A DNA stretch of 64,000 nucleotides from Actinomycetospora straminea. GTDB taxonomy: Bacteria; Actinomycetota; Actinomycetes; Mycobacteriales; Pseudonocardiaceae. The stretch lies in the NCBI RefSeq assembly GCF_028737255.1, contig NZ_JAQZAN010000014.1, positions 62,001 through 126,000 of the forward strand, given 5' to 3'. Shown one piece after another: positions 41,271-48,005 of the stretch (position 1 is its first letter; every line of letters begins with the position of its first letter). The notes under the pieces were generated by a model that had not been told where the DNA came from, made no database searches, and saw only the letters and a program-made list of their open reading frames with translations. A program made the translations under genes and the position numbers.

Positions 41271-41310
41271 GACCGGAACGCCGGGCCTCGCTCGTCCCGG
41301 CGTTCCGGTC
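41271..41310. terminator. Bidirectional 15-bp hairpin
   Basis: GACCGGAACGCCGGG pairs perfectly with CCCGGCGTTCCGGTC across a 10-base loop. It lies between the convergent SnoaL-like and serine hydrolase genes and its right arm reaches the latter's stop codon. Confidence 0.8.
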
Positions 41311-42571
41311 ACGCGGCGTAGAGCTCCCCGATGACGACCTTGGCCAGTTCGGTCGCGGGGGCGCGTCCGTCGACGGTCGGCGCATCGGTGGCCCACACGA
41401 CGACGGTGATGTCGCGGCCGGGGTCGTGGCCCATGAACGAGTTGTAGCCGGGCAGCTCGCCGGTGTGCCCGTAGAGCGGGCCGTAACGAGCCAGGCCCAT
41501 GCCGTAGCCCGAGGTCGCGGCCGTGTCCGCGGGGTCGACCGGGCGGACGCTCTCCAGGCGCTGGGCCTGGAGCTCCGGGGGCAGCAGGCCGCCGCCGGCC
41601 AGGGCGCGGACGAAGCGCACGAGGTCGTCGACGGTGGAGATCGCGGAACCCGCTGTCCACCCCCACGAGGGGTTGGCCGCGGTGACGTCGGTGGGTGCGA
41701 GCTGTCCGGAGCGAGCCCTCGCCTGGACGTCGTCCGGCAGGACCGAGGACTCGATGGTCTCGACGTTCGTGCCGTAGGTGTACCCGTGGGCGAACGGCGC
41801 GGGGATCGTGGCGTCGGCCGGGAGGGGCAACGAGGTCCCGCTCATGCCGAGCGGCGTGAACAGCCGGTCGCGGAACTCCTCCGACGCGGACCGTCCGCTC
41901 AGCTGCTCGATGACCAGCCCGAGCAGCACGATGTTGGTGTTCGAGTAGTTGAAGCCCTGGCCGGGCGGATAGAGCGGCGGCCGCGCGAAGCCCATCGCCA
42001 GCAGTTCTTCCGGGCGGTACACCCGGCCCGGGTCCGCGTCCTGGGCCTGGTTGAGCTCGAGCGCCTCCGTGTAGTTGTACAACCCGCTGCGCATCTCCAG
42101 CAGCTGCCGGATCGTGATCGCGCCACCGTTGGGCACCTCCGGCCGGTAGCGCGCGATCGGGTCGTCGAGCCCGAGGCGGCCCTCGGCCACGAGCTGGAGG
42201 ATCACCGTCCCCGTCATCGGCTTGGTGTTGCTGCCGACGCGCACGTGGTCGGTCGGGGAGACGGGGTCGGCGGCGCCGTACGTGCGGCTGCCGTAGGTCA
42301 TCGTCCAGTCGCCCTGCGGGGTCCGCACCGTGATCACGGAACCGGTCACCAGCATCTCGCGCGCCAGCGCCTCCAGCTGCGGACGCAGTGCCGTGGCGTA
42401 CGCGGGCTCGGGGCCGGCGGGTGCACCGGACGGAGGGGCGGCCACGGCCGCCGGGGCGGCGCCCGCGGCCGGGGCGGGGCCCGCCGGCGCTGCGGAGGCC
42501 CCGCAACCGGCAGCCAGCAGAGCGGTGCACACCCCCAGAGCAGCCGTCGCGCGCAGGGTGGTGAGGGTCAT
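41309..42571 (-). CDS. Class-C beta-lactamase-like serine hydrolase, lipoprotein
   Basis: A 420-residue exported enzyme. The signal MTLTTLRATAALG ends in the lipobox LLAAGC. The serine-beta-lactamase/DD-peptidase fold shows the SxxK motif as VGSNTKPMT, the YxN motif in NYSNTN, and the HxG motif in GHTGELPG. Possible activities are D-alanyl-D-alanine carboxypeptidase, esterase or beta-lactamase. The signal peptide and about 200 bases of upstream DNA are near-copies of those of the M23 gene next door, including the GACC-N2-GGTC promoter. ATG 42571 is preceded by GGAG. Confidence 0.88.
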   Translation of the reverse strand: MTLTTLRATAALGVCTALLAAGCGASAAPAGPAPAAGAAPAAVAAPPSGAPAGPEPAYATALRPQLEALAREMLVTGSVITVRTPQGDWTMTYGSRTYGAADPVSPTDHVRVGSNTKPMTGTVILQLVAEGRLGLDDPIARYRPEVPNGGAITIRQLLEMRSGLYNYTEALELNQAQDADPGRVYRPEELLAMGFARPPLYPPGQGFNYSNTNIVLLGLVIEQLSGRSASEEFRDRLFTPLGMSGTSLPLPADATIPAPFAHGYTYGTNVETIESSVLPDDVQARARSGQLAPTDVTAANPSWGWTAGSAISTVDDLVRFVRALAGGGLLPPELQAQRLESVRPVDPADTAATSGYGMGLARYGPLYGHTGELPGYNSFMGHDPGRDITVVVWATDAPTVDGRAPATELAKVVIGELYAA

Positions 42572-42619
42572 CGTCGAGGCTCCAGGGGCTCGGGGTGCGC
42601 GAGCGGCACCGGCCCGTCG

Positions 42620-42664
42620 AGGCTCCGCTCGGGCGCCGGACCGGGACAAGCGACCCAGGTCGCC
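42620..42664 (-). promoter_or_regulatory. GACC-N2-GGTC box and promoter of the serine hydrolase (copy A)
   Basis: On the minus strand GCGACCTGGGTCGCTTGTC joins the palindrome GACCTGGGTC to a CTTGTC -35 (42645-42650). GAGCCT (42620-42625) follows after 19 bases as the -10. The start codon is about 49 bases further on. Confidence 0.6.
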
Positions 42665-42762
42665 TCTCCCCGCGCGAGGCGACAGCCCGCGCCTGTCCCG
42701 GGCGGTCCTCGGTCGACGGCTGGACGGGTGCGGCCGGTCCGGGGCGGGTGGGGCGAGGGTGG

Positions 42763-44046
42763 TCACGGCCCGAAACGGACGACGTCCCGGTCCAGCGGCA
42801 GCTCGTTCGTGCGCGCCGACGCCGGGTTCGCCGGCCGGAACGGCAGCGCACCGGTGGGCTGCAGCCCCAGGTTGTCGTCCCACAGCCGCACCGGGACGTG
42901 CCCGAGCAGGGTGAAGGAGTCGAACGCGTACGGCCTGCTGTCGGCCGGGAAGTAGGTCGGCGTCGTCAGGATCTGGAAGTGCAGGTGCGGGGTGGTGGAG
43001 ATCCCGCTGCTGCCGATCAGCCCCAGCTGTTGGCCACGCGTCACCCGGTCACCGACCCGGACCGCCACCGATCCCGGATCCATGTGCGCGTACAGCACAT
43101 GGACCCCGTCGGAGACCTGCACGATGACGTGGTTGCCGACGGTCTCCCCGACGGTGGCCAGGTTCGTCGGGTTGGGGACCTCCGCGCTGTTGGCGAGCCC
43201 GTCCTGGGCGGCGACCACGGTGCCCGCCGTGGCCGAGAGGATGGGCTGGCGGTAGGACAGGTAGCTGTCGAGTCGCGACGGGTCGCCGACCCATGTCCGT
43301 TGCTGGTCGTCGAGCTTGTAGAAGTCGATGGCGTACCGGTTCGGGACCTCCAGCACCCCGTTGACCGGTTCCATGCCGCGGCGGTGGTGCGTGTCGTCGG
43401 CGCAGCAGCCCTCACTCATGTACCAGGTCCCCGCCGGCACCGGTGCACCCACGACGATCGGCCCCGCGGTGGCCGGATTCGTGCGGCCGAGCCGCATCCG
43501 GATCGGGGCGGGTGGTGCGCCGGGGGCCAGGACGGCGCCGCTCACGACGTGCTCGATCGTCGCCGGCACCGCGTTGCGCTGCGGGAAGACGACATCGACC
43601 CAGGCGACGTACGTCGTGGTCGGCGCGATGGTCACCGAGGTGTTGCCGGGACCCGGTTGGCTGACCCCTTCGGCCCCTTCGGCCTCGGCGCCGACCTGGA
43701 GCGGCGTGAGGTCGACCCTTCCCGTGGTGCCCGGCACCAGCGCCGAGGTGGCGGCGTCGTGCAGTTCGACCCCGTCCACGCGCACGGGGGCGGGGGCCAC
43801 GTTGGTCAGGACGAGTTCGTAGGTCAGGTGCACCTTGCCGTCGGTCATCGCGACGGGCTCCGGCGTCGTGACGAACGAGGCCGACAGTTGGGTGACCTTC
43901 GCTCCCCTGTCGATGCCGCTCGCGAACGCGCCCGTCGGCGTGGCCTGCGCGGGAGCGGGTGTCGACGGGGCGGCCGCGCAGCCGGCGGCGAGCAGGGCGG
44001 TGCACAGTCCCAGGGCGGCCGTCGCCCGCAGCGTCGTGAGGGTCAT
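42763..44046 (-). CDS. M23-family (LytM) peptidase lipoprotein
   Basis: A 427-residue exported protein with the signal MTLTTLRATAALG and lipobox LLAAGC. The middle (about 40-170) is a beta-sandwich-like region. The C-terminal M23 domain contains NRYAIDF, LYAHMDPGSVAV and the HxH of TPHLHFQI near residue 355. The usual first zinc ligand appears within HHRRGMEPVNG, so cleavage of peptidoglycan cross-bridges is plausible but should be checked. ATG 44046. The promoter carries the GACC-N2-GGTC box and diverges from the sensor-kinase promoter. Confidence 0.86.
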   Translation of the reverse strand: MTLTTLRATAALGLCTALLAAGCAAAPSTPAPAQATPTGAFASGIDRGAKVTQLSASFVTTPEPVAMTDGKVHLTYELVLTNVAPAPVRVDGVELHDAATSALVPGTTGRVDLTPLQVGAEAEGAEGVSQPGPGNTSVTIAPTTTYVAWVDVVFPQRNAVPATIEHVVSGAVLAPGAPPAPIRMRLGRTNPATAGPIVVGAPVPAGTWYMSEGCCADDTHHRRGMEPVNGVLEVPNRYAIDFYKLDDQQRTWVGDPSRLDSYLSYRQPILSATAGTVVAAQDGLANSAEVPNPTNLATVGETVGNHVIVQVSDGVHVLYAHMDPGSVAVRVGDRVTRGQQLGLIGSSGISTTPHLHFQILTTPTYFPADSRPYAFDSFTLLGHVPVRLWDDNLGLQPTGALPFRPANPASARTNELPLDRDVVRFGP

Positions 44047-44101
44047 CGGACGGGGCTCCAGACGCTCCGCGGCTCGGGCCCGAGCGGCGCCGGCCCCGTC
44101 G

Positions 44102-44145
44102 AGGCTCCGCCCGGCCCCGGGACCGGACAAGCGACCCAGGTCGTG
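44102..44145 (-). promoter_or_regulatory. GACC-N2-GGTC box and promoter of the M23 gene (copy B)
   Basis: On the minus strand ACGACCTGGGTCGCTTGTC contains GACCTGGGTC followed after one base by the -35 CTTGTC (44126-44131). GAGCCT (44102-44107) follows at 18 bases as the -10. The leader to ATG 44046 is about 50 bases. Confidence 0.6.
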
Positions 44146-44218
44146 TCCTGACCTGGTCGACGGCCCGCTGGGCCGGGTCGGCGCTGACGGAACGTCTGGA
44201 CGGGTGCGGCCGTCGGGA

Positions 44219-44262
44219 GGCGACCGAGGTCTCTTGGACCAGCGCGCCGGTGCTGCGAGGCT
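44219..44262 (+). promoter_or_regulatory. GACC-N2-GGTC box and promoter of the sensor kinase (copy C)
   Basis: GCGACCGAGGTCTCTTGGAC contains GACCGAGGTC (palindrome GACC-N2-GGTC), then one base, then the -35 CTTGGA (44233-44238). GAGGCT at 44257-44262 is the -10 after an 18-base spacer and ends six bases before GTG 44269, so the kinase mRNA appears leaderless. Confidence 0.6.
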
Positions 44263-44268
44263 GCCGTC

Positions 44269-46023
44269 GTGGACGGTCCGGCACGGGGGCGAGCTCCGCT
44301 GCGCGCCGCCCTCGCCCTGGTCGGCGTGCTGGTGGTGGTGCTGGGCTTCCTCGAGGTGGCCCTGGCGCTCGACGCGCCGGACACGGCGTGGTCGGCGGCG
44401 GCCTTCGTCGTGGTCGGCGTCCTCTACGCGGGGTGCGGGCTGGTGGCCTGGTCCCGCCGCCCGAGCAACCGGATGGGCCTGCTCATCGTGCTCGGCGGGG
44501 TGGCGATCATGGCTGCGGCCCTCGCCTCGACGGCGGACCCGGTGCTGGTCGCGCTGGGCACGGTCGTGGCCACCCTGCCCTTCGCCTCCGTGGTGCACCT
44601 GGTGCACGCGTTCCCCTCGGGCCGGCTCCGGAGCGTCCCGTCCCGGGTGCTCGTCGTGGCCTGTTATCTGGTGTCCCTCGTGCTGCAGGTGCCGCTGTGG
44701 GCGTTCTCCGCAGCACCTCCGCCCGGGGACCTGCTCCTCGTCGCCGATCGCCCGGATCTCGCCGCGCTCGGTGCCGCGGTCCAGTCGGCCGCGGGCGCGT
44801 CGGTACTGCTCGCCACGGCGGTCCTCCTCGCGGGCCGGCTGCGGCGGGCGACACCGGCTCAGCGGCGCGTGCTCGTCCCGCTCTACGCCTACGGGGTCCT
44901 CGCGGTGCCGCTGCTGCCCGTGCTCGCGGTGGTGGTGGGACCCCTGACCGGGATGTCCCTGGAGGTGGTGGGCCTGCTGCAGCTGATCGTGGTCGCCGGG
45001 GTCCCGGTCGCGTTCACCCTGGCCGTGCTGCGTGGTGGGTTCGCCCGGACCGCCGAGCTGGAGGAGCTGGGCGCCTGGCTCGCCGCCGACGAGGTCGGCC
45101 GCCCGGAGCTCACGGCCGCTCTGGCCCGCACCCTCGGCGACGACACCGTGCAGCTGGTGTTCCGCGTGCACGGGTCCGGCGACCACGCGGACCACGTCGA
45201 CGCCGAGGGACGACCGGTCGTGGTGCCGCCCGTCGGCCACGGGCGGGCCGCGGCGGAGGTCGAGCTCGCGGGCCGGCCGGTCGGCGCGGTGCTCTACAAC
45301 GCGCTCGTCGCCGACCCCGACGACGTCCGCAGCGCCGCGCAGGTGGTGGCCATCGCCGTCGACCACGAGCGCCTGACCGCCGAGCTGCGGGCCAGCCGCA
45401 CGGCGCTCGACGAGTCCCGCGCACGCATCGTCGCCGCCGGGGACCGCGAGCGGCGCCGGATCGCGCAGGATCTCCACGACGGCCTGCAGGTGCGGCTGGT
45501 GGTGCTCGCGATGGAGGCCCAGATGGTGGCCGGCGAGGCCGGGGCGTGTCCCGCCGTCGCCGAGGCCGCCTCGGGCCTGCGCCGCGGGATCGATGAAGCC
45601 GCCGCGGAGCTCCGCGCCCTCGTGCACGCGGTCATGCCGGCCGCGCTCGTGCAGCGCGGGCTCGCCGCGGCCACCGAGGACCTCGTGGACCGGGTGGCGT
45701 TGCCGGTGCACCTGGAGTCGTCGGTCGTCGACGGCGTGCTGCCCGCCGTGGTCGAGAGCACCGCGTACTTCGTCGTGGCCGAGGCGCTCGCCAACGCCCT
45801 CAAGCACGCCGATGCGACCCGTCTCTGCGTGCGGCTGGTCGCCGACGTCGACGAGCTGACCGTGGAGGTCCGCGACGACGGGGTGGGTGGGGTCGTGCTG
45901 GGGGCGGGGACGGGGCTGCGGGGGCTCGCCGACCGGGTCGACGCCGCGGGGGGCGCCCTGCACGTCGAGAGCCCGCCCGGCGGGGGCACGCGGATCCGGG
46001 CGGTGCTGCCGTGCGCATCGTGA
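44269..46023 (+). CDS. NarL-type sensor histidine kinase with multi-span membrane domain
   Basis: A 584-residue kinase. About seven or eight hydrophobic segments fill residues 10-260, without a large extracellular loop. A GAF-like linker follows (about 270-370). The HisKA_3 dimerisation helix carries the phospho-histidine in DRERRRIAQDLHDGLQVRLV near residue 403. The HATPase domain has the N box AEALANALKHA and the G boxes VRDDGVGG and GTGLRGLADR. Such membrane domains often sense lipid, cell-wall or membrane stress. GTG 44269 looks leaderless. The response regulator overlaps it by 13 bases. Confidence 0.92.
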   Translation: MDGPARGRAPLRAALALVGVLVVVLGFLEVALALDAPDTAWSAAAFVVVGVLYAGCGLVAWSRRPSNRMGLLIVLGGVAIMAAALASTADPVLVALGTVVATLPFASVVHLVHAFPSGRLRSVPSRVLVVACYLVSLVLQVPLWAFSAAPPPGDLLLVADRPDLAALGAAVQSAAGASVLLATAVLLAGRLRRATPAQRRVLVPLYAYGVLAVPLLPVLAVVVGPLTGMSLEVVGLLQLIVVAGVPVAFTLAVLRGGFARTAELEELGAWLAADEVGRPELTAALARTLGDDTVQLVFRVHGSGDHADHVDAEGRPVVVPPVGHGRAAAEVELAGRPVGAVLYNALVADPDDVRSAAQVVAIAVDHERLTAELRASRTALDESRARIVAAGDRERRRIAQDLHDGLQVRLVVLAMEAQMVAGEAGACPAVAEAASGLRRGIDEAAAELRALVHAVMPAALVQRGLAAATEDLVDRVALPVHLESSVVDGVLPAVVESTAYFVVAEALANALKHADATRLCVRLVADVDELTVEVRDDGVGGVVLGAGTGLRGLADRVDAAGGALHVESPPGGGTRIRAVLPCAS

Positions 46024-46658
46024 TCGGCGAGGACGAGGCGCTCCTCCGGCGCGGCCTGGCCCACGTGCTCGAGCACGCGGGGCACGACGTGGTGGGCACC
46101 GCCGCGGACGGCACCGAACTGCTGCGCCACACCGAGGAACGCGGGCCCGACCTCGTCATCACCGACATCCGTATGCCTCCCACGCACACCGACGAGGGCC
46201 TGGTCGCCGCCCTGTCCATCCACCGCGACCACCCGGAGGTCGCGATCGTGGTGCTCTCCCAGCACGTGCAGCGACGTGCCGCCGTCGAGCTCCTGGACGT
46301 GCGGCCGACCCGGATCGGCTACCTGCTCAAGCAGCGCATCGCCGACATCGAGACGTTCTGCGACGACCTCGAGCGCGTGCGCGCCGGCGGCACCGTGCTC
46401 GACCCCGAGATCGTCGAGCTGATGCTCAACCGGGCCCGGCGCGACGACCGGGCTCTCGGCCGGCTCACCGCGCGCCAGCTCGAGGTGCTGACCCTGATGG
46501 CCGAGGGCCGGACGAACGCCGCGATCGCCCGCGCACTGACCATCACGGAGAAGGCCGTCGTCGGGCACGCCTCGCACATCTACGACCAGCTCGGCCTCGC
46601 GCCCGACGGCGACGACCACCGCCGCGTCCTCGCCGTGCTCCGCTACCTCCGCCGCTGA
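46011..46658 (+). CDS. NarL/FixJ-type response regulator
   Basis: A 215-residue response regulator. The receiver has the acidic pair in IVIGEDEALLRRGL, the phospho-aspartate in DLVITDIRMP near residue 51, and the lysine in GYLLKQRIAD. The LuxR-type DNA-binding domain is LTARQLEVLTLMAEGRTNAAI through EKAVVGHASHIYDQLGL. GTG 46011 overlaps the kinase stop, so the two are coupled. It is the natural candidate for binding the GACC-N2-GGTC boxes of the four neighbouring promoters; that is inference. Confidence 0.93.
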   Translation: MRIVIGEDEALLRRGLAHVLEHAGHDVVGTAADGTELLRHTEERGPDLVITDIRMPPTHTDEGLVAALSIHRDHPEVAIVVLSQHVQRRAAVELLDVRPTRIGYLLKQRIADIETFCDDLERVRAGGTVLDPEIVELMLNRARRDDRALGRLTARQLEVLTLMAEGRTNAAIARALTITEKAVVGHASHIYDQLGLAPDGDDHRRVLAVLRYLRR

Positions 46659-46716
46659 GCCGTCCCTCTCGAGCAGCTGGCGGACCGTGGGTCGCGGCGT
46701 CGTGCGGGCGTCGAGA

Positions 46717-46760
46717 GGGGACCTGGGTCCCTTGGGCCACCGGCCCGTGATCGTCACGCT
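46717..46760 (+). promoter_or_regulatory. GACC-N2-GGTC box and promoter of the second serine hydrolase (copy D)
   Basis: GGGGACCTGGGTCCCTTGGG contains GACCTGGGTC, one base, then the -35 CTTGGG (46731-46736). CACGCT at 46755-46760 follows after exactly 18 bases as the -10, the same geometry as the kinase promoter. From CTTGG to the next GTG is 36 bases in both. Confidence 0.6.
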
Positions 46761-46823
46761 GCTGCCGTGGACGAAGCGGCGGCCGGGACGATCGCGGCTG
46801 CGCTCCGGTGTCGAGGGGGAATC

Positions 46824-48005
46824 GTGGGTCGTGCGCTGTTGCTGCCCGTCGCGCTCGTGCTCGCCGTGGCGCTGATCGCCTGCTCGGGGGGCTCGGCATC
46901 CGCACCGTCGCCGGCGGCCGCTGCCACCTCCCCGGTGCCCTCGATCGGCACGTCCACCCTGCCCGCCGACGTGGTGGCGCAGATCGACCGCGCCGCCGGG
47001 GCCTCGCTGCGCGACGGCGTCACCGGCGCCATCGTCAGCGTCGTCGACCCGGCGCGCGGGACGCTGATCAAGGCGTACGGCACCGCCGACACGGCGGGCA
47101 CGCCGATGACCCCCGACCTGCACTACCGCATCGCCAGCGTCAGCAAGACCTTCACCGCCGACGCCGTCCTGGAACTCGCTGGGCAGGGGCGGCTCGACCT
47201 GGACGCGCCGCTGTCGGACTTCGTGCCCGACGTGCCCAACGCGAGCACCATCCGCATCCGCGACCTGCTGGCCATGCGCGGCGGCGTCTTCGACTTCACC
47301 GCCGACCCCGGGTTCCTCGCCCGCTACACCGCCGACCCGACGCTGCCGGGCTGGACACCCCAGGACGTCGTGGGCATCGTCCGCGCGAACGCCGCCCAGG
47401 CCAAGCCGCCGAACACGGCCACGGTGTACTCGAACTCGGAGTTCGTCCTGCTCGGGCTGGTGCTCGAACGGGTCACCGGTCAGAGCGCCCAGCAGTACCT
47501 GACCGGGCTCATCGGGCGCTTCGGGCTGTCGCAGACCAGCTATCCGACGACGGACGCGTTGCCCTCCCCGTCCAGCCGCGGGTACATCGCGACCGGGGAC
47601 CCGCAGACCCCGCCGCCCTACCGGGACGGCACGACGTCCAACCCGCAGGTGCCGTTCACCGCGGGCGCCCTGATCTCCACCGTGCCCGACCTCACCCGCT
47701 ACGCCCCGATGCTGGCCGGCGGTCAGGGGCTGTCCCCGTCGGTCGCGGCCCAGCGCCAGACGTGGGGCCCGCTGACCACCTCCGGGCCGCGCGCGCAGTA
47801 CGGGCTGGGCATCCTGCAGCTCGGGGACTGGGTCGGCCACAACGGCTCGATCTTCGGCTACAGCGATGCGATGTTCCACCTGCCGTCGCAGCGCGCCACC
47901 GTCGTCTTCATGGTCAACGCCGGCGACGGCGAGGCGGTGCCGGCGCAGGCGCTGTGGGGCGAGGTGGCCAGGTTGCTCTACCCCCAGAGCATCCCGACCT
48001 GGTGA
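46824..48005 (+). CDS. Class-C beta-lactamase-like serine hydrolase, lipoprotein
   Basis: A 393-residue exported enzyme with signal GRALLLPVALVLAVALIAC, the cysteine being a lipobox candidate. The catalytic motifs are SxxK in RIASVSKTFT, YxN in VYSNSEF, and HxG in VGHNGSIFGY. It is distantly related to the serine hydrolase at 41.3-42.6 kb and probably also acts on D-Ala peptides or esters. GTG 46824 is preferred because GAGGGGGA precedes it; GTG 46767 is the alternative if the mRNA is leaderless like the kinase. It follows the response regulator but has its own box-bearing promoter. Confidence 0.87.
   Translation: MGRALLLPVALVLAVALIACSGGSASAPSPAAAATSPVPSIGTSTLPADVVAQIDRAAGASLRDGVTGAIVSVVDPARGTLIKAYGTADTAGTPMTPDLHYRIASVSKTFTADAVLELAGQGRLDLDAPLSDFVPDVPNASTIRIRDLLAMRGGVFDFTADPGFLARYTADPTLPGWTPQDVVGIVRANAAQAKPPNTATVYSNSEFVLLGLVLERVTGQSAQQYLTGLIGRFGLSQTSYPTTDALPSPSSRGYIATGDPQTPPPYRDGTTSNPQVPFTAGALISTVPDLTRYAPMLAGGQGLSPSVAAQRQTWGPLTTSGPRAQYGLGILQLGDWVGHNGSIFGYSDAMFHLPSQRATVVFMVNAGDGEAVPAQALWGEVARLLYPQSIPTW

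Follow-up and report, generated by a model that had tools for sequence, protein, structure and literature searches.

A candidate GACC-N2-GGTC operator linking a NarL-type two-component system to envelope lipoprotein genes in Actinomycetospora straminea

Our analysis concerns a module at positions 41309-48005 of a 64,000-nucleotide (nt) stretch of Actinomycetospora straminea DNA (assembly GCF_028737255.1, contig NZ_JAQZAN010000014.1, 62,001-126,000), referred to here as the window. The module comprises five genes, encoding two lipoprotein serine hydrolases (HYD1 and HYD2), an M23-family lipoprotein, a sensor histidine kinase and a NarL-type response regulator. These are arranged in four transcription units, each of which is headed by the element GACC-N2-GGTC-N-CTTG, whose palindrome we call the box and consider as a candidate operator of the regulator. 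The features are collected in Table 1.

Table 1. Genes and promoter boxes of the module, in window coordinates.
Feature	Position	Strand	Remarks
HYD1, S12-family (PF00144) serine hydrolase lipoprotein	41309..42571	-	SNTK, YSN and HTG motifs, read by eye
M23-family lipoprotein (PF01551)	42763..44046	-	HxH kept; canonical His of HxxxD replaced by Arg (RYAxD)
Sensor histidine kinase	44269..46023	+	HisKA_3 (His403), HATPase_c; about 8 membrane segments in the N-terminal half
NarL-type response regulator	46011..46658	+	Receiver (Asp52, Lys107), LuxR/GerE helix-turn-helix, KAVVGH recognition helix; overlaps the kinase end
HYD2, S12-family (PF00144) serine hydrolase lipoprotein	46767..48005	+	SVSK, YSN and HNG motifs, read by eye; likelier start GTG 46824
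Box 1, GACCTGGGTC	42652..42661	-	Upstream of HYD1; followed by CTTG; exact element 42647-42661; putative -10 GAGCCT 42620-42625, 26 nt off
Box 2, GACCTGGGTC	44133..44142	-	Upstream of the M23 gene; exact element 44128-44142; putative -10 GAGCCT 44102-44107, 25 nt off; copy of the box 1 region
Box 3, GACCGAGGTC	44222..44231	+	Upstream of the kinase; exact element 44222-44236; putative -10 GAGGCT 44257-44262, 25 nt off
Box 4, GACCTGGGTC	46720..46729	+	Upstream of HYD2; exact element 46720-46734; putative -10 CACGCT 46755-46760, 25 nt off

Both hydrolases belong to family S12, HYD1 scoring 202.1 bits and HYD2 161.7 bits against PF00144 (cut-off 27). A preliminary description of this DNA had called HYD1 a class-C-like serine hydrolase and HYD2 a second serine hydrolase. 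Against the class C beta-lactamase model (NCBIfam bla_class_C, cut-off 415 bits) HYD2 reached 31.3 and HYD1 48.8 bits, and all class C models among the matches listed (for HYD1, the best 25 of 41 families) stayed below their cut-offs. The best solved relatives of HYD1 over its catalytic domain, with which it shares the SxxK, YxN and HxG motifs, are the alkaline D-peptidase 4y7p (expectation value, E, 4e-46) and the D-alanyl-D-alanine carboxypeptidase 1cef (E 1e-38), the latter presumably the R61 enzyme. The M23 protein scores 64.8 bits against PF01551, above cut-off. In an alignment of five subgroup sequences (window 42967-43338, reading RYAID, and loci L086, L090, L092 and L093), HxH was present in 5/5 and RYAxD replaced HxxxD in 5/5, so that the catalytic zinc motif pair HxxxD plus HxH was found in none of them. 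Because of this replacement in the window protein and its four relatives, we regard the protein as a member of the fold that may be a non-catalytic or unusual M23, with zinc binding perhaps altered or lost. HYD1, the M23 protein and HYD2 each show, by eye, a lipobox-like signal-peptide end. The kinase falls in the HisKA_3 class (PF07730, 43.8 bits; PF02518, 41.2 bits; both above cut-off) and has nine hydrophobic stretches, the ninth lying within the ATPase region, with no large extracytoplasmic domain. The regulator is of the NarL/LuxR type (PF00072, 60.3 bits; PF00196, 42.4 bits; both above cut-off), and its Asp52 and Lys107 are invariant in nine of nine aligned sequences.

The four elements match GACCNNGGTCNCTTG exactly, as had been described, and they are the sole exact copies in the 6.29 Mb genome (6,285,992 bases), as compared with none for the reversed control. 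Four random matches within 4.1 kb of this genome have a probability of about 1e-9, and chance was thus rejected as the source of the cluster. Random occurrence elsewhere in the genome had been named beforehand as an outcome that would count against the box; the exact element is confined to the module and not scattered. When one mismatch was allowed, 25 sites (including the four of the window) were found in the genome versus 16 in the control, so that only the exact element stands out. When two mismatches were allowed, the window alone gave 13 sites for 11.0 expected, which is chance level. Beyond the cluster and a paralogous operon considered below, 20 one-mismatch sites occur in the genome, with L008, L016 and L024 having an nAnnnT hexamer at 25-26 nt. 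Among the 297 genomes of the family, 100 (this one included) hold the exact element, with a maximum of six in one genome (G015, spread over several contigs); four close-set copies are found in none of the others among the 297. The looser pattern GGACCYRGGTCC occurs near the level of its reversed control in most of the 18 genomes of the genus (6 versus 6 in this one). It exceeds the control in three genomes with a related kinase (G098, 13 versus 4; G243, 10 versus 3; G118, 8 versus 4) and also in G075, which is without a kinase of the clade defined below (12 versus 4). Targets therefore cannot be called from the palindrome alone.

The upstream regions of HYD1 and the M23 gene, together with their signal peptides, are identical at 187 of 245 positions (76%; 42502-42736 and 43977-44212). 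The mature proteins are of different families despite this common promoter and signal peptide, and the closest M23 ortholog, which is 84% identical and found in G258, has a different 5' end and signal peptide. A cassette of promoter plus signal peptide seems, from these alignments, to have been captured. Since boxes 1 and 2 are copies, the window contains at most three independent promoters, and support must come from outside of it. This duplication, like the gathering of all four exact copies in one cluster, is what would be expected if the boxes were only passengers, one promoter having been copied locally several times with a gene end and the similarity carrying no regulatory meaning. Nonetheless, in other genera and at unlinked sites the palindrome precedes genes that are not homologous, at a fixed distance from the -10. 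Such conservation across genera largely refutes local duplication as the whole explanation, which we consider highly improbable.

Kinases related to that of the window were collected from 16 of the 18 genomes of the genus (E 1e-30), 10 of the 297 of the family (E 1e-120 or better) and 3 of the 394 of the class (this genome included in the latter two), and further from 11 of the 395 genomes of a second family (f6) and from a named collection, in which 80 of 122 confirmed loci were kept. Family f6 is more likely the Sinomonas family, as the regulators at 8 of its 11 loci are nearest to Sinomonas, at 75-95%. Across several genera, the palindrome, mostly in the form GACCYRGGTC, was found before the kinase, S12 hydrolases, M23 lipoproteins or a CAAX protease. 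The box is thus conserved at orthologous loci, where its absence had been named as an argument against it, and at unlinked ones. Within Actinomycetospora, the kinase gene of G118, G042, G151 and G098 has the exact palindrome in front of it, as do kinase-neighboring M23 genes in G243 and at a second G151 locus, while other such M23 genes have a one-mismatch box in G200 and a two-mismatch box in G118. In G004, of the same family but another genus, two boxes lie between the divergent kinase and M23 genes, the arrangement also found in the window. The palindrome directly precedes the kinase in Pseudonocardia (L133) and Microbacterium (L121 and L146), and a boxed S12 hydrolase precedes kinase and regulator at Sinomonas and Sinomonas-like loci (L129, L243, L245, L246, L249 and L250). 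A record labeled Sporosarcina beigongshangi (L118) has the same gene layout as G894 (L250), which is placed in an actinobacterial family, and its name looks wrong. Ten proteins encoded behind an exact or one-mismatch box with a -10 were scanned against Pfam, giving four PF00144 members, one Rce1-like CAAX protease, one alpha/beta hydrolase and four without a family. Most further loci taken for the palindrome alone (L218-L220, L222-L225, L227 and L228) have no -10 at 25-26 nt from an exact box, and these are not called as targets. The paralogous operon of the A. straminea genome (L091, G000:C24:39000-53594) encodes a CAAX protease, a kinase and a regulator with the same helix type, and has a box followed after 25 nt by TAGCGT. 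In an enumeration of 2304 palindromes (256 half-sites in 9 gaps), made before the spacing was known, GACC-N2-GGTC ranked first around related kinase-regulator pairs, occurring at 13 of 22 clade loci (window included) versus 4 of 42 others (p 4e-5, or about 0.1 when corrected for 2304 tests).

The distance to the promoter was examined for every exact GACCYRGGTC at 34 clade and 5 unlinked loci, leaving out the window, by counting nAnnnT on both strands (70 views) at distances of 5-43 nt. The hexamer was found 15 times at 25 nt and 8 times at 26 nt, i.e. 23 of the 58 occurrences over 39 spacings, the other 37 spacings averaging 0.95; TAGCGT recurs at this position. Control loci (30 views) presented no peak, with at most 3 at any distance and 2 at 25-26 nt. 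In the window, putative -10s stand 26, 25, 25 and 25 nt from boxes 1-4, and none starts with the T of a good -10. The preliminary description had placed the -10 at 18-19 bases past CTTG, where we instead read weak nAnnnT hexamers at 20-21 nt. As the palindrome lies 25-26 nt upstream of the hexamer, it would be centered near -43, the position of activators that touch the polymerase at -35. Activation by NarL-type regulators usually involves this layout, a center near -43 and poor -35 hexamers. CTTG had been included in the composite, but it is only partly conserved; elsewhere the palindrome is also followed by CATG, TATG, CATT or CCTTC, and CTTG was rejected as an essential part. Genes called as starting 37-39 nt past a box (the window kinase, at 38 nt, and genes at L146, L121, L249, L250 and L217) would yield leaderless messages, with the predicted +1 of the kinase at or beside its GTG. 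As had been pointed out, 44269 and 46767 share the same CTTG-to-GTG spacing of 36 bases. However, HYD2 more likely starts at the in-frame GTG 46824, which follows GAGGGGG and precedes the lipoprotein signal; HYD2 orthologs align from residue 19-20, and the identical spacing was therefore dropped as evidence.

For the regulators, a match of 185 residues or more close to the kinase was obtained at 87 of 100 loci; the 13 dropped include L089, with its split regulator, and the named loci L118, L120, L123, L125, L127, L130-L132 and L134 were left out as duplicates of loci with G handles. Of the 87, 33 carry KxVV in the recognition helix (the VV regulators). The second V is thus Val in 33/33, and in the other 54 regulators this position is Glu (47), Ala (6) or Gly (1). 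Set by these helix columns, the 33 VV regulators are monophyletic (support 0.974) and supersede an earlier set of 35, obtained with a loose regular expression, that gave no clean clade. Exact GACCYRGGTC was found at 25/33 VV loci versus 12/54 others (p 1e-6). The box with a -10 at 25-26 nt, a spacing derived partly from the same loci, was found at 19/33 (18/32 without the window) versus 1/54 (L186), with p 2e-9. The palindrome hence tracks a single regulator clade, in agreement with the earlier proposal that the boxes serve as operators of the adjacent NarL-type regulator in a self-regulated module. At two Microlunatus loci (L137 and L138, 4250-4680), a kinase-regulator pair of a sister type with the helix AVARN lies behind a HYD1-like gene (55%), whose upstream DNA, by eye, shows TACCTCCATTG in place of the GGTCCATTC or GGTCCATG frequent in the VV clade; TACCTCCATTG is possibly a different operator at the same place. 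The only common palindrome in the sister loci L137-L139 was GATCA/TGATC, in two of the three.

Candidate targets also occur away from the kinase. The HYD2 ortholog is at 1.86 Mb in G042, where the kinase is at 3.49 Mb, and in G098 the two are on contigs 6 and 26; both promoters hold GACCCAGGTCCCTTG, which is the composite element of the window. The G042 gene (L215, G042:C1:1863697-1864868) is split over two frames and may be broken or mis-sequenced. The palindrome precedes further unlinked S12 genes, two in G042 (L214 and L217) and one in G118 (L297), so that G042 has three such genes (one split), G098 one and G118 one. At L214 the palindrome has no -10 at the expected spacing; at L217 the -10 pairs with a second box, which has one mismatch. 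A comparison of S12 genes (E 1e-44 or better) set eight genomes that have the clade kinase, counting in the split G042 gene, against eight that do not, covering 38 of the 44 genes of the latter (the six from G250 and G258 were left out). Within about 700 nt upstream, the exact palindrome was found for 8/45 genes with the kinase versus 1/38 without (one-sided p 0.03); these hits include L283 and L331, two S12 genes whose upstream DNA is similar, one from a genome with the kinase and one from a genome without, which have the exact palindrome but no fitting -10. In G258, an incomplete genome (59%) in which no clade kinase was found, the 84%-identical M23 gene has no box in 1.05 kb of upstream DNA, a single case. 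In G135, where the clade kinase is absent, the palindrome, 26 nt and TAACGT stand before an alpha/beta hydrolase gene (L226, G135:C4:138322).

Several observations weigh against the boxes being operators of the clade regulators and should be considered when referring to these statistics. The kinase's own box, GACCGAGGTC, has the center GA and breaks the YR rule, while the other three, GACCTGGGTC, have TG. Fourteen of the 33 VV loci lack an exact box with a -10, and eight of those lack any exact GACCYRGGTC, while the palindrome at 12 of the 54 other loci is there by chance or otherwise. An exact box with a -10 at L086 (4728, minus strand) is not followed by any called gene. On average, clade loci are a little longer than the others (13.7 versus 11.5 kb), and, because the loci are related by descent, the p-values are too small. 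The S12 box is only weakly commoner with the kinase, at 6/43 and p 0.08 once the window is excluded. G075 has no clade kinase, yet its HYD2 ortholog keeps the box with one change in the left half, GATCCAGGTC, again a single case. Finally, this genome has two regulators with the same helix type, those of the window and of the paralogous operon, which are 62% identical, and cross-talk between the two pairs is possible. The paralog's box at its own operon and the boxed gene of G135 could accordingly mean that the boxes answer to another regulator, either the paralogous pair (G000:C24) or a global one, the adjacent pair being a mere target. This view partly overlaps with that of a clade operator. 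Among the 87 loci, however, box and -10 follow the VV clade, also where a genome has a single clade kinase (G042 and G098), and we consider control by another regulator unlikely.

Taken with these reservations, the kinase and regulator (44269-46658) very probably form an autoregulated two-component system that activates its own operon and envelope hydrolases through GACC-N2-GGTC, as judged from sequence comparison. A signal sensed at the membrane or wall would lead the kinase to phosphorylate Asp52 of the regulator, and a regulator dimer would bind the palindrome just upstream of RNA polymerase, activating promoters whose -35 is poor. The predicted targets in this genome are its own operon, the two S12 lipoprotein serine hydrolases and the M23 lipoprotein, with the paralog's CAAX-protease/kinase/regulator operon as a further probable one. 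The output would be remodeling or protection of the cell envelope; the target content fits envelope remodeling, or defense against peptide or wall antibiotics, in general, and not specifically the beta-lactam response that the preliminary description had put forward. The same operator could also serve repression, the hydrolases staying silent until the signal arrives, as a site beside the -35 could block the polymerase and autoregulation would fit either sign. The layout near -43 speaks for activation instead, as does VraR, whose phosphorylation is required for the upregulation of its own operon (PMC6612188). We thus consider repression improbable, though somewhat less so than control by another regulator.

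Compared with known systems, we judge the pair to be of the NarL-type autoregulated envelope-response kind with its own operator and target set, and not an ortholog of LiaRS, VraSR, MadRS or MacRS. It resembles VraSR and LiaRS of Firmicutes in its NarL-type regulator, HisKA_3 kinase, autoregulation, envelope response and own-promoter site at -35 (all three here predicted), and the three best solved relatives of the window regulator profile are chains named VraR. It differs from them in the roughly eight membrane segments of the kinase, the half-site GACC and the VV helix (KTVKTH in VraR). No LiaF-like match was found among the five window proteins scanned, and no VraR or VraS NCBIfam model appeared among the matches listed. 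Scores stayed below the equivalog cut-offs for MadR (83.2 of 300 bits), MctR (81.9 of 300), MctS (87.2 of 700), LiaS (66.5 of 450) and MadS (40.6 of 500). The operator consensus of MacRS is reportedly TGAGTAC-N2-GTACTCA, with a half-site unlike that of GACC-N2-GGTC. Phosphorylated VraR occupies a site from -46 to -26 that overlaps the -35 of its own promoter, and a further site from -75 to -50 (PMC6612188). MacRS of Streptomyces coelicolor is, like the window pair, an actinobacterial NarL-type system with lipoprotein targets; its direct targets are membrane proteins and lipoproteins described as morphogenetic factors (PMC9739842), whereas those of the window pair would be hydrolases. Searches of the open literature on the box, the regulator, the hydrolases and related systems, judged by their listings, returned no description of this system.

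To our knowledge, the operator is known for only a minority of actinobacterial NarL-type pairs. For the present pair, a candidate operator with its promoter distance, the helix residues matched to it and a set of targets can all be stated from sequence and are testable, and they provide a handle on the role of secreted PF00144 hydrolases in actinobacteria. The findings also suggest a way in which one regulator may acquire unrelated secreted proteins as targets, namely the exchange of promoter plus signal peptide. It could well be, and we put this at about an even chance, that the pair represents a widespread actinobacterial two-component family in which the VV helix is paired one-to-one with GACCYRGGTC. 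Such a family would govern secreted S12 hydrolases and M23 lipoproteins in a varying set, whose members are added by promoter-plus-signal-peptide capture, and would constitute an envelope-stress or peptide-antibiotic response in its own right, parallel to LiaRS/VraSR.

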